Shown here piece by piece: positions 3,398-49,375 of a DNA stretch of 54,219 nucleotides (position 1 is its first letter; every line of letters starts with the position of its first letter). The DNA is from Candidatus Woesearchaeota archaeon (GTDB lineage: Archaea > Nanobdellota > Nanobdellia > Woesearchaeales > GW2011-AR9). The position numbers and the translations under genes were made by a program. The notes under the pieces were generated by a model. The model saw nothing but the letters and a program-made list of their open reading frames with translations. It did not search any database and was not told where the DNA came from. The stretch is taken from contig JACPND010000020.1 of the NCBI GenBank assembly GCA_016185625.1, positions 1 through 54,219 of the forward strand. The letters run 5' to 3'.

Positions 3398-3943
3398 TTA
3401 CTTCCCTAGCACTTTCTTGAGGTTCTCGATGAGCTTATCCACCGCATCGTTCACTTCTTTCTCAGTCTTCGTTCCGGTACAGACAATCTTACCATTGCTG
3501 AAGAGCAGGAAGGTTGCATTAGTTCCTTTCAGCTTATGCACCAAACCCGGGAACTGCTCCGGCTCGTATTCAGTATTCGGCAGCTTGACACCTAAGATAT
3601 TTAAGTTCAGATCCATGCCGATATGGCCGGAAGCGACGATATTCTGAACGGTAATCTGGGGCTTAATCGTAACATGAATGTCCAGCTTTTTAAGCGCTTT
3701 GATGATCTGTTGGATGGCCAATTCTACATCTCCCATGGTCCTAGCGCCCGTACAGACAATCTTCCCGCTGGAGAACACTAAAGCAGATGTTTTGGGCTCT
3801 TTGATCCTGAGAACAAGACCGGGAAATTGCTCGGGATTGTATTCAGTATTCGGCAAAGTTGCCGCCATCTTCTCTAAAGGGATATCTTTCTCTAACGACG
3901 ACGAAACCACAATATTAACAATTTTAATTTCTTTTTTTGCCAT
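3398..3943 (-). CDS. tbp: TATA-box-binding protein
   Basis: Two direct repeats with NTEYNPEQFPGLV / NTEYEPEQFPGLV and SSGKIVCTGAR / SNGKIVCTGTK. Confidence 0.97.
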   Translation of the reverse strand: MAKKEIKIVNIVVSSSLEKDIPLEKMAATLPNTEYNPEQFPGLVLRIKEPKTSALVFSSGKIVCTGARTMGDVELAIQQIIKALKKLDIHVTIKPQITVQNIVASGHIGMDLNLNILGVKLPNTEYEPEQFPGLVHKLKGTNATFLLFSNGKIVCTGTKTEKEVNDAVDKLIENLKKVLGK

Positions 3944-8550: not shown

Positions 8551-8979
8551 TCACCAGTTGTTATTAGTACAAACTCCTTTATAGTCCGGCGGTACGCTGC
8601 TGCATGAAGGATAACTGCTGCTTCCACTGCTAGATGACTTTCCACTGGACGAAGAAGCATTACTGCAAGAGCAGGAACAACCTCTTCCAGGATATTCTTC
8701 ATTACATTTCTGGGTTGCCAAACCTTCTGCACTGGATTTGGAACTTGCGCCATAAATCTCTATACCCACAAAAAGCCCGTTTCCTTCGCAATTACAATTA
8801 TATTTTTGATTGTTCGTTGAACTACTACTATTATTAGAACCGCTAGAATAATTATCATTACTAGGATCATCACTTTCTGTCTCACAGCCAATCACTGCCG
8901 GCATGCCCAACAAAGAAATTAACCCTGCGCCAGCTAATAATTTTCTCCCATTTTTTAAAATATTCTCCAATCTTTCCAT
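8551..8979 (-). CDS. Ser/Cys-rich predicted lipoprotein
   Basis: MERLENILKNGRKLLAGAGLISLLGMPAVIGC lipobox-like; Ser/Asn-rich mature region with Cys pairs. Confidence 0.65.
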   Translation of the reverse strand: MERLENILKNGRKLLAGAGLISLLGMPAVIGCETESDDPSNDNYSSGSNNSSSSTNNQKYNCNCEGNGLFVGIEIYGASSKSSAEGLATQKCNEEYPGRGCSCSCSNASSSSGKSSSSGSSSYPSCSSVPPDYKGVCTNNNW

Positions 8980-9005
8980 TTTTGTTACCTCTTCGTTTAA
9001 ATTTT

Positions 9006-9239
9006 TCACTTACATAGGTAAAGTGGAGTCGCTTTGTTCCCTTTACTGTCTGTGCACTCACAATATGCATCGTCGTCATAGGTCTCCGTTGGCCAACAAT
9101 CAATCCACTGGCCATCTACATGACAACTGCAGTCATTTTTCTCACCGCATCCAGAATATCCTAACACCAAACTGGCAGCCAAAACCCCAATACTTATCAT
9201 TTTACTTAAAATAAGCTCCTGCTGCGGCGCAGGGCTCAT
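9006..9239 (-). CDS. Small Cys-rich predicted lipoprotein
   Basis: ISIGVLAASLVLGYSGCGEKNDCSCHV; start codon ambiguous (9239 or 9200). Confidence 0.55.
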   Translation of the reverse strand: MSPAPQQELILSKMISIGVLAASLVLGYSGCGEKNDCSCHVDGQWIDCWPTETYDDDAYCECTDSKGNKATPLYLCK

Positions 9240-9486
9240 AGCAGCCGTTCTTTTTCACACATTCGGTGTTGGCAGAGATACCTTTGGAGCCGGTTTCGAA
9301 GATTTCTGCACATTCGTATTCCGATGACGAAGTACAACGATTTTCCGTCAGGCAGTCGCAGCACTTCTCCTGATCTGTTGTCAGAGCTGCTTCACAGCCT
9401 GGATACAAAAGCATGCTTGCGGCTACCAGCACACGAGACGTATTTGCTTTCATAGTTCCTAAAATCAGTTCTAGAGTATTTTTCAT
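9202..9486 (-). CDS. Small Cys-rich predicted lipoprotein
   Basis: SRVLVAASMLLYPGCEAAL signal/lipobox-like; about 10 Cys in the mature region. Confidence 0.6.
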   Translation of the reverse strand: MKNTLELILGTMKANTSRVLVAASMLLYPGCEAALTTDQEKCCDCLTENRCTSSSEYECAEIFETGSKGISANTECVKKNGCYEPCAAAGAYFK

Positions 9487-9553
9487 TTTCTTTTAATATG
9501 CACCCCTTTATCTCTATTTTTAAATTTTATGATTCTCAGATAAGGTCTACTTT

Positions 9554-9700
9554 ATGAATGACGGCAAGGCCAAGATTGCTGCGACACTAAGCTACTGCTT
9601 GCACCAGGTTAAGGAACACTTTTCTATCAGGAAAATAATCCCATTTTTGAACAACTACCTCTCCAGAAAAGTGGGTCGCGGCAGGCCAGCCGTCATTCAT
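9554..9700. ncRNA. Structured element copy 1 (candidate ncRNA or repeat)
   Basis: Perfect 12-bp terminal stem ATGAATGACGGC/GCCGTCATTCAT; inner stems GCTGCGAC/GTCGCGGC and CACTTTTCT/AGAAAAGTG; related copy at 49011-49130. Confidence 0.55.
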
Positions 9701-9725
9701 TCGCTAAGATGGCAGTATCTGATTC

Positions 9726-10151
9726 TCATTTCTTTTCTTTGAGTAAAATCTCCATTGCTTCTTTTGTTTCCTGGCATTGTCGGACATCCCTAAGAAAGAT
9801 CACTGAGGCATCGTACTTCCCATCAATCACTAAAATCAATCCTTCAGTCCTATAATTTTCCTGGCTAGTTTCAAAAGTATCTTGGCATTTCAGAGATTCG
9901 ATTTCATCCCAAGTAAATTGTGATGAAAATTGCGATGAAACTACCCTTTTGAAACTACTCCAATAAACTGGGGTTTGAAAGCAGTAAAATCCATTGTTGT
10001 CAATTCGAAAATGAGGTTCATTTTCGCCGATATCGTTTTTATACGATGGATAAGCTTGGTAATCTCTTTTAGCATAGGTGGTCGGTGGTGACGAACACGC
10101 GAGTAAAAGAGAAAAGTATGTTAGTCCACTTGCGATTAATTTCTTAATCAT
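9726..10151 (-). CDS. Predicted secreted/lipoprotein, paralog A
   Basis: MIKKLIASGLTYFSLLLACSSPPTTYAKRDYQAYPSYKNDI; similar to the next ORF around TTYA(K/Q)RDY..YP.Y. Confidence 0.65.
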   Translation of the reverse strand: MIKKLIASGLTYFSLLLACSSPPTTYAKRDYQAYPSYKNDIGENEPHFRIDNNGFYCFQTPVYWSSFKRVVSSQFSSQFTWDEIESLKCQDTFETSQENYRTEGLILVIDGKYDASVIFLRDVRQCQETKEAMEILLKEKK

Positions 10152-10573
10152 GGTTTCAATTGTAATCCCACATAAACACGTATGGCCTTGGCAAAATCCG
10201 CAGTCTGCAGAGTGTCACGAAAATGACCCATATTAATACATTTTTTACCATAGTCACACACTTTTACCATTTCTTTACCTGAAACGACTTTGGTGATTTG
10301 ATCCCATCTGACATACTTGGGAAATGATGGAGAGCCTTTTGTGGTGAATTTGATACCCTCTTCCGTAATATCCATCTCATCACAGAGGGGCTGGACAACC
10401 CACGGATTACAAATGTTTTTTGCAATTTCCTGAAGATTATGCAACGCGATTTCCTTCCGGTATGCCGGATATTGGTCATAATCACGTTGGGCATACGTTG
10501 TCGCGCAATGCAACCCTAAGGCTGCTGCAAAGACAAAGCCTTTTTTCACCAACGATTCTAAAGTTCCGCCCAT
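10148..10573 (-). CDS. Predicted secreted protein, paralog B
   Basis: LGLHCATTYAQRDYDQYPAYRKEI; overlaps paralog A by 4 nt. Confidence 0.65.
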   Translation of the reverse strand: MGGTLESLVKKGFVFAAALGLHCATTYAQRDYDQYPAYRKEIALHNLQEIAKNICNPWVVQPLCDEMDITEEGIKFTTKGSPSFPKYVRWDQITKVVSGKEMVKVCDYGKKCINMGHFRDTLQTADFAKAIRVYVGLQLKP

Positions 10574-30031: not shown

Positions 30032-30087
30032 GGCGTAGCCGACGATGCAGGAAAGCGAAGTCTTTCTTTGCACTTCTTGGCTAAGCC
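30032..30087. ncRNA. Candidate structured RNA/hairpin between oriC and the SpoIIM-like gene
   Basis: Nested stems GGCGTAGCC/GGCTAAGCC (one mismatch), TGCA/TGCA, GAAAG/CTTTC. Confidence 0.35.
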
Positions 30088-30156
30088 ATCACTCACAAAA
30101 CAGACAATGCCCACTTCTACACAATGTTTAAATAGATTATACATATCCCTTTCTCT

Positions 30157-30999
30157 ATGGTCTTGGAATCTTTGTTTAATCCTTTCATTATCAAGCGGAA
30201 GCCTTGGGAGATGTTTGGCGCTGGATTTATCTATTCTATTGTTGGCTTGCTGTTATCTTATATCGTTTTTAAAGAGGCCGCTGGACTTCTGACAGTTTTT
30301 TTAATCTGCTTTGCCGCCATCCCCTTGCTCTATGTAACGGTGAAGAATGAAGAGGAATTGGATATGAAGTATAATAAAGAGTTAAGCCTGCTGAAAGAGC
30401 ATACCAAAGTGCTCCTCTTCCTGCTTTTTTTCTTTTTAGGAGTTACGGCAGCGCTTTCACTGGCTTATATTTTCCTCCCTGCTCCATTAGTCAAGACTGT
30501 TTTCTCGCTTCAGGAGCAGGCTATTGTCAATGTGAATAATAATGTCCAAGGCAACGTAGCCCAATTTAACCTCTTCATCCGTATCTTTTTAAACAACCTT
30601 AAAGTGTTGTTTTTTTGTATTGTTTTCTCTTTTTTATATGGGACGGGAGCGATTTTTATTTTGACCTGGAATGCATCCGTGGTGGCTACGGCTATTGGAA
30701 ATTTGTTTAAGACGGAATTGGCGAAAGGAGCAACACTTGTCGGGTTTCCAGTATTATCACATTATTTAACCGCCGCATCGTTCAGTTTCTTCCGTTACAT
30801 GACCCACGGGATTTTTGAAATTACTTCTTATTTTATCGCCGGATTAGCCGGAGGGATAATTTCGATAGCGCTGATAAAGCATGACCTACAGAATGACAAA
30901 GTGCTGATTGACGCTTTAGATTTGATTTTACTCAGCTTGGCGGTGCTGTTCGTCGGGGCAGTGGTCGAAGTCTATGTCACGCAGCCGATGTTTAGCTGA
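30157..30999 (+). CDS. SpoIIM-like integral membrane protein
   Basis: Multiple TM helices; NNVQGNVAQFNLFIRIFLNNLKVLFFCIVFSFLYGTGAIFILTWNASVV resembles stage II sporulation protein M family. Confidence 0.75.
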   Translation: MVLESLFNPFIIKRKPWEMFGAGFIYSIVGLLLSYIVFKEAAGLLTVFLICFAAIPLLYVTVKNEEELDMKYNKELSLLKEHTKVLLFLLFFFLGVTAALSLAYIFLPAPLVKTVFSLQEQAIVNVNNNVQGNVAQFNLFIRIFLNNLKVLFFCIVFSFLYGTGAIFILTWNASVVATAIGNLFKTELAKGATLVGFPVLSHYLTAASFSFFRYMTHGIFEITSYFIAGLAGGIISIALIKHDLQNDKVLIDALDLILLSLAVLFVGAVVEVYVTQPMFS

Positions 31000-48954: not shown

Positions 48955-49010
48955 TTCTTGTCTTTGTTTAGCATTATACAGTCAAAATTCTTTCAGATAC
49001 TGTTTACTAA

Positions 49011-49130
49011 ATGAATGACGGCTAGGTCAAGAGGTTTGCGAGGCCAAGCTATACGCTGTTCTTGGAACGGTTTTTCCTCGAAACTGAGTTATCGAAAAAG
49101 CCGCCGAGTAAACGGCCAGCCGCCATTCAT
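49011..49130. ncRNA. Structured element copy 2 (candidate ncRNA or repeat)
   Basis: ATGAATGACGGC/GCCGCCATTCAT terminal stem (one mismatch), GTTTGC/GTAAAC, CGGTTTTTC/GAAAAAGCCG; shares AGGYCAAGA, AAGCTA, GGCCAGCCG and 3' flank TTCGYTAAGA with copy 1. Confidence 0.55.
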
Positions 49131-49195
49131 TCGTTAAGAACACAGCATCATTCTTTCACAAATCTTTTAAATGAACGTTAGTCTAAAAATATACC

Positions 49196-49282
49196 AAAGG
49201 ACATAAATAATTATACAGATAGTTATGTCCTTTGTACATAGCGACTGTGTATAATTGTCTAAACATTAATGTCAGTCGCTAT
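49196..49282. repeat. Two adjacent perfect hairpins with complementary loops
   Basis: AAAGGACATAA/TTATGTCCTTT (11 bp) and ATAGCGACTG/CAGTCGCTAT (10 bp); loop segments AATTATACA and TGTATAATT are reverse complements. Confidence 0.8.
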
Positions 49283-49375
49283 AGTATGATGAAAAAATGA
49301 AGGCCGGAAATATTATTGGTATGGTCCAAGGATTACTTGAACCATATTTGGGAGTTTTTGGGAGAAACAATTAAA

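Follow-up and report, generated by a model that had tools for sequence, protein, structure and literature searches.

What are the two structured elements in this stretch of archaeal DNA, and how did they come to lie where they do? The window, by which we mean the whole 54,219-nt stretch analysed, is contig C15 of a 1.16 Mb genome assembled in 46 contigs. For one gene of the window, the closest relatives are in MAGs of which several carry archaeal labels (nzgw58, nzgw56), and the leaderless TATA promoters described below are consistent with an archaeon. An initial annotation described two elements with 12-bp ends and inner stems, and both features are present as described. It found the right locations, but its coordinates (9554–9700 and 49011–49130) cover only the inner part of the true elements, which extend over 9539–9719 (copy 1) and 48996–49149 (copy 2). 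Copy 1, on the plus strand, is a diverged subtype of 181 nt that scores 137 bits with the covariance model R1 introduced below. Its terminal inverted repeats (TIRs), GATAAGGTCTACTTTATGAATGACGGC and GCCGTCATTCATTCGCTAAGATGGCAGTATC, enclose a folded core (core 1, 9566–9688, plus strand) of stacked helices with the layout GGCC-AAGA-stem...stem'-GGCC. Copy 2, also on the plus strand, is 154 nt long and runs from GATACTGTTTACTAAATGAATGACGGC to GCCGCCATTCATTCGTTAAGAACACAGCATC. The general TIR layout of the copies is GATACTG...CAGTATC; the outer ends read GATAAGG/CAGTATC in copy 1 (right end GGCAGTATC) and GATACTG/CAGCATC in copy 2 (right end CACAGCATC). Perfect 9-bp direct repeats abut both copies and differ in sequence between the two loci. 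At copy 1 the repeat is TGATTCTCA (9530–9538 and 9720–9728, the latter overlapping the stop codon of the ORF 9726–10151), and at copy 2 it is ATTCTTTCA (48987–48995 and 49150–49158).

Folded as single strands, both copies beat 200 of 200 dinucleotide shuffles (z = −5.2 for copy 1, −3.3 for copy 2). A 62-aa ORF within copy 1 (9554–9742) is taken as fortuitous, since only four codons precede a stop in the equivalent frame of the other class members. Copy 1 sits between two members of a minus-strand array of small ORFs (8551–10573), the N-termini of which resemble lipoprotein signal peptides.

The initial annotation counted two copies. The host genome holds six of the GATACTG class, namely copy 2, four others 91–93% identical to it and the diverged copy 1, and the window itself contains a third, degenerate member on the minus strand at about 30060–30111. 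In this last element a terminal repeat, GGCATTGTCTGTTTTGTGAGTGAT (30088–30111), is followed by the start of a core, GGCTTAGCCAAGAAG, and the opposite end has no recognisable terminus. Perfect 9-bp duplications flank five of the six GATACTG-class copies; those at three copies elsewhere in the host genome are TCATCAGAA, TGATAGGTT and TTTTCCCCA, while the C11 copy has no duplication left. A small AAGCTA hairpin had been described in both window copies. Its stem is not kept in all copies of the class, and AAGCTA is a partly conserved sequence of the junction region.

How far does the family extend? The search with a covariance model that the initial annotation proposed did turn up further homologues, with covariation. 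We built model R1 from ten sequences of four genomes, the alignment of which gives a consensus of 30 pairs, 21 of them showing two-sided changes. Of 145 related genomes, 26 contain a match to the folded core and, with the best 20 candidates scored per genome, copy numbers reach at least 20 in some genome, as they do in the host genome itself. At least five kinds of terminal repeat enclose this core, each with duplications of 8 or 9 bp: class a (ends GATACTGT, 9 bp), class b (GGCACTRTC..GTGAGTGAT, 8 bp), class c (GTACGTATTAAG, 8 bp), class d (GTATAAGGAAAG, 8 bp) and class e (GGCTCTGTAGAAA, 9 bp). An automatic scan of 82 elements detected a duplication at 33; with the flanks re-paired between elements, the number was 0–4. 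Phage, plasmid and viral collections gave no match to the elements. The elements have TIRs and a duplication of constant length, contain no internal transposase gene (154–181 nt) and are dispersed in many copies. We conclude that they are a superfamily of MITEs, which bears out the earlier suggestion that they were MITE-like.

Class b is abundant: the host genome alone has 40 of its left ends. In a relative, genome G039, more than 50 class b left ends (GGCACAGTC) are mostly identical and nearly all lie at contig ends; for both reasons they suggest a recent burst of transposition that fragmented the assembly. A second folded core (GTGCCMAKGAGTGCAGTGAGGGAGAAG...GGTTGGATTAGCACTATAAACGCAGC...GATTAATCCACCCGAACTGC) was seen within class b repeats in the host genome (L134, L135, L139, L142, L147, L152 and L155), and also at L032 (about 3700–3830), there with GATACTG ends. 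Because this core occurs with both kinds of end, repeat classes and cores appear to be shuffled among elements. Composite elements (L087, L121, L122, L127 and L086) carry one TIR pair around two cores in opposite orientations, and the two cores differ in their stems (AAAAACGCCGCC and GAGCACTAGC). Extra hairpins common to several elements lie within the MITEs at L139, L156, L160–L162 and L110 (for example AAGTCCTC...GAGGACTT, AGATGAGG...CCTCATCT and TGCAAGAGCTCGCAATGCTCTTGC); these would be nested insertions of small hairpins.

What lies immediately outside the elements? Each of the three in the window has an adjacent predicted promoter that points outward, the TATA boxes being called from sequence. 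Beside copy 1 a BRE/TATA-like promoter (TAAAA+TTTAAAA, 9518–9529, minus strand; TATA at 9518–9524, index 14 from the edge of the copy) points away from the element and towards the ORF 9202–9486, the ATG of which is at index 52. Beside copy 2 the corresponding promoter (CAAAT..TTTTAAA, 49159–49171, plus strand; TATA at 49165–49171, index 15) likewise points away, and the next long ORF begins at a distance of about 150 nt. The third element, with its edge at 30111, is followed by CACAATG+TTTAAAT (30120–30133, plus strand; TATA at 30127, index 15), and the ATG of the ORF 30157–30999 is at index 45 from that edge. This fixed position beside a promoter, absent from the initial annotation, is the most important feature of the elements. 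The promoter of copy 2 is followed by two palindromes (AAAGGACATAA...TTATGTCCTTT and ATAGCGACTG...CAGTCGCTAT, 49188–49285), probably within the 5' leader; a similar palindrome, GAAGGACATAA, adjoins the C9 copy.

Is this arrangement general? To answer this we took 51 non-redundant elements, each chosen because it has a duplication, as the set for duplication length and for the promoter tests. On their 102 sides, TATA-like heptamers peak at index 10–19 (25 and 18 counts in the two 5-nt bins) against 0–4 per bin elsewhere out to 150 nt. At index 12–16 such a heptamer is present on 33 of 102 sides, compared with a background of 0.7–0.9% (p about 1e-44). The TATA mostly starts at exactly index 14, with the consensus GAAAnnTTTATAAA; read from the edge, the consensus is eight variable nucleotides (the duplication), GAAA, two nucleotides and TTTATAAA. 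Start codons on the promoter side peak 44–45 nt from the edge. A leave-one-out BRE+TATA PWM finds a promoter at 43 of the 51 elements, in all five classes, against 16 of 357 outward-shifted controls; the other eight, the C9 copy included, lack a convincing promoter. The layout outward is thus element, duplication, BRE, TATA and usually a leaderless ATG. Insertion to near single-base precision at the edge of a promoter is established. The insertion point is at about −44, which would be the upstream edge of the footprint of TBP and TFB.

An independent test was made across the order. The class e end GGCTCTGTAGAAA occurs in 59 of 242 genomes, whereas a reversed-pattern control is nearly nil. Among 68 distinct ends, the first TATA heptamer is at exactly index 15 in 21, and a PWM built with class e left out recovers the promoter at 11 of 12 elements that are complete and have duplications, mostly at exactly 15. 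These order-wide class e MITEs are mostly about 163 bp long, and their folded interior is not the one described above (GACAAGGGG...CCCC..GGGG..GTCAGC); one exception, which R1 does recognise, is at L269. Since the interior differs and the spacing is the same, the promoter habit belongs to the transposons and not to the core of the window elements. The interior represents a third core family (GTTAGCAGC...GACAAGGGG...CCCC..GGGG..GTCAGC...GCTGCTAAC), noted in class e MITEs of about 163 bp at L268, L278, L294, L295, L300, L304 and L305; in L037, similar sequence is found close to the G001 copy.

If the elements carry no transposase, which enzyme moves them? Twelve of 21 genomes carry DDE_Tnp_1 genes, which in the host genome are short or broken pieces only. 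One such gene, at a contig end (L184), has a GGCTCTGTAGAA end, and a search from its C-terminal 64 residues identified homologues in 23 of 145 genomes. A complete IS of 994 bp in genome G033 (L199, 633–1626) has the class e ends GGCTCTGTAGAAA, a 9-bp duplication, CTAAGAACA, and a TATA at index 15. Its transposase belongs to the IS5 family (NF033579, IS5_2, 140.2 bits at a cut-off of 140; PF01609). A second IS5_2 protein scores 142.5 bits at the same cut-off, and a third, at 110.8 bits, falls below it. Five further GGCTCTGTAGAA ends with a related transposase in the locus have their TATA at index 15 (L184, L203, L208 twice and L212); four others (L198, L200, L202 and L206) have no TATA there. 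The GGCTCTGTAGAA IS ends and the ends of class e MITEs in the present family begin with the same 12 bases. That an IS5-type transposase moves class e is well supported. The shared architecture, duplication length and target spacing suggest that an enzyme of this type would move the GATACTG class too.

We found no transposase with GATACTG or GGCAC ends. Two other families were considered and rejected: IS1595 (PF12762), suggested by the GGCTCTGT-like ends, is represented by one gene in one of 16 genomes, without matching ends, and IS256 (PF00872), suggested by duplications of 8–9 bp, occurs in none of 21. A terminal-repeat scan of 23 DDE_Tnp_1 loci revealed one GGCAC-type end beside transposases, in L181 (G031:C48), but the limits of a complete element could not be drawn. 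At this locus CAGTATCTCCGAA repeats flank an ISH3-like transposase gene, which lies next to the GGCAC-type end and an IS5-like transposase; it is a possible lead to the mobiliser of class b. The ORFs near orphan GGCAC ends are host genes and one integrase-like fragment, with no autonomous element among them. A de novo scan at strict settings for long elements with TIRs and duplications returned none; it is no evidence of absence, because it also missed the L199 IS.

Why, then, is the core so strongly paired, and does it act as RNA or as DNA? The initial annotation had noted that pairing is retained while sequence alters, and this holds across the family. Across 85 aligned R1 matches the paired fraction of cells is 95.3%, whereas shuffles reach 64.4%. 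Two-sided changes affect 29 of 30 pairs, and covariation scores 0.745, compared with 0.188 for shuffles. These figures lean towards the model to which the alignment was fitted, but they exceed the shuffles by a very large margin. When partners are slid by one column the covariation falls to 0.15 or less. Part of the core, GGCC-AAGA...CGGCC, is about 90–100% conserved while the other stems turn over. Some core loops are more conserved than the terminal repeats, for which a passive MITE interior offers no explanation.

Very strong covariation, together with unpaired positions that are conserved (the AAGA bulge, for instance), is what one would expect if the elements encoded an unrecognised structured RNA, as the initial annotation allowed, with the flanking repeats incidental. 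An RNA should, however, show G–U pairs far in excess of A–C, because G–U on one strand is A–C on the other. In the stem cells of 53 sequences below 80% identity we counted 1448 Watson–Crick pairs, 25 G–U and 18 A–C, an excess of G–U that is not significant (p = 0.36). The corresponding counts for 30 tRNAs from these genomes were 605, 30 and 0. Both ARAGORN, used for the tRNAs, and the covariance model disfavour A–C and so favour G–U, which makes the low G–U of the elements harder to explain as RNA. Nor does the RNA proposal fit the rest: Rfam has no match at gathering or relaxed thresholds, the promoter may be on one side of the core or the other, with no clear preference, and some elements carry two cores in opposite orientation. 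The annotation had itself named flanking target-site duplications as evidence against an RNA, and such duplications are what we find. We regard a general RNA function as unlikely, though some copies may have one. A further comparison is with the attC sites of integrons, or with some other recombination site that folds as a single strand, since attC sites are palindromic, with strand-asymmetric bulges and stems of variable sequence, and are of similar length. But the elements are dispersed single copies with true terminal repeats and target duplications of 8 or 9 bp, no cassette arrays were seen, and this identity can be practically dismissed. With G–U pairs rare, in no clear excess over A–C and unlike those of tRNAs, the elements look like DNA palindromes, the arms of which change together through selection on DNA structure or through template switching between the arms. 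The core would act, if at all, as a DNA structure.

Could the promoter spacing arise in some other way than by targeting? Neutral insertion followed by selection, in which a small genome packed with genes would retain insertions only where they lie upstream of promoters, would predict the intergenic location, but it should also give broad distances. The observed peak is 1–3 nt wide with adjacent bins near zero, and we consider this origin very improbable. A more serious proposal is that the transposase recognises the BRE/TATA sequence itself, as a long AT-rich consensus, and not the transcription factors bound to it. Spacing exact to about 1 nt is usual for sequence-specific enzymes, and the consensus GAAAnnTTTATAAA was recovered. 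On the other hand, the adjacent promoters look real, with start codons peaking 44–45 nt from the edge, and the duplicated 8- and 9-mers themselves have no strong consensus. Direct recognition of DNA deserves real weight, at a little under even odds.

Our reading, to which we give a probability of about 85%, is that the elements form a superfamily of MITEs moved by the IS5 family and inserted directly upstream of the BRE/TATA of existing promoters. The window elements are non-autonomous DNA transposons (MITEs) that would be mobilised by IS5-family (DDE) transposases. Each comes close to being a single long imperfect hairpin, in which the TIRs run straight into the folded core (GGCC-AAGA-stem-...-stem'-GGCC). 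The transposase would insert the element, with a duplication of 8 or 9 bp, directly upstream of the BRE/TATA, for which reason the promoter would stay intact and point away from the insert. Recognition would pass through the promoter-bound TBP–TFB complex rather than bare DNA. We put forward only tentatively the fuller proposal that TBP–TFB tethers IS5-type transposases, which then insert at its upstream edge, and that the core is a conserved DNA-structure module that aids movement.

How do these elements compare with known systems? To our knowledge no such promoter-edge targeting has been described for IS5 or for any prokaryotic IS. A keyword search of the open-access literature, a coverage that leaves out most subscription journals, returned no report of a promoter-targeted IS in archaea. 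Like members of the IS5 family (NF033579 transpos_IS5_2, PF01609), the class e partners encode a transposase, are about 1 kb long and have terminal repeats and short duplications; unlike them, the elements here are placed to nearly a single base upstream of BRE/TATA promoters. Prokaryotic MITEs, among them Correia, RUP and QMITE (reviewed in PMC10969869), resemble the present elements in being non-autonomous, 150–190 nt long and intergenic, with TIRs, duplications and stem-loop folding. They differ in two respects: here a conserved, covarying core is common to at least five terminal-repeat classes, and the elements keep a fixed distance to a host promoter rather than carrying one.

In a small genome dense with genes, a mobile element has to spare its host. 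The eukaryotic elements Ty3 and TRE5-A do so by docking on transcription complexes, and we know of nothing comparable in archaea or bacteria. The TBP and Brf1 of TFIIIB are homologues of archaeal TBP and TFB. The yeast retrotransposon Ty3 inserts at a narrow fixed position by promoters, guided by TFIIIB (PMC8632968), and TRE5-A also inserts at a narrow fixed position beside promoters (PMC5391098). The present elements share that narrow placement but are unrelated, being archaeal DNA transposons with a putative DDE transposase, for which tethering by TBP/TFB is our proposal. The MITE reading explains puzzling, covarying 'RNA-like' repeats of the kind that comparative RNA searches would flag. 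If the targeting is confirmed, the edge of an element would serve as a natural marker of promoters in uncultured archaea, pointing to the TATA and the leaderless start site, and transposition guided by TBP/TFB could be tested with a handful of purified proteins.
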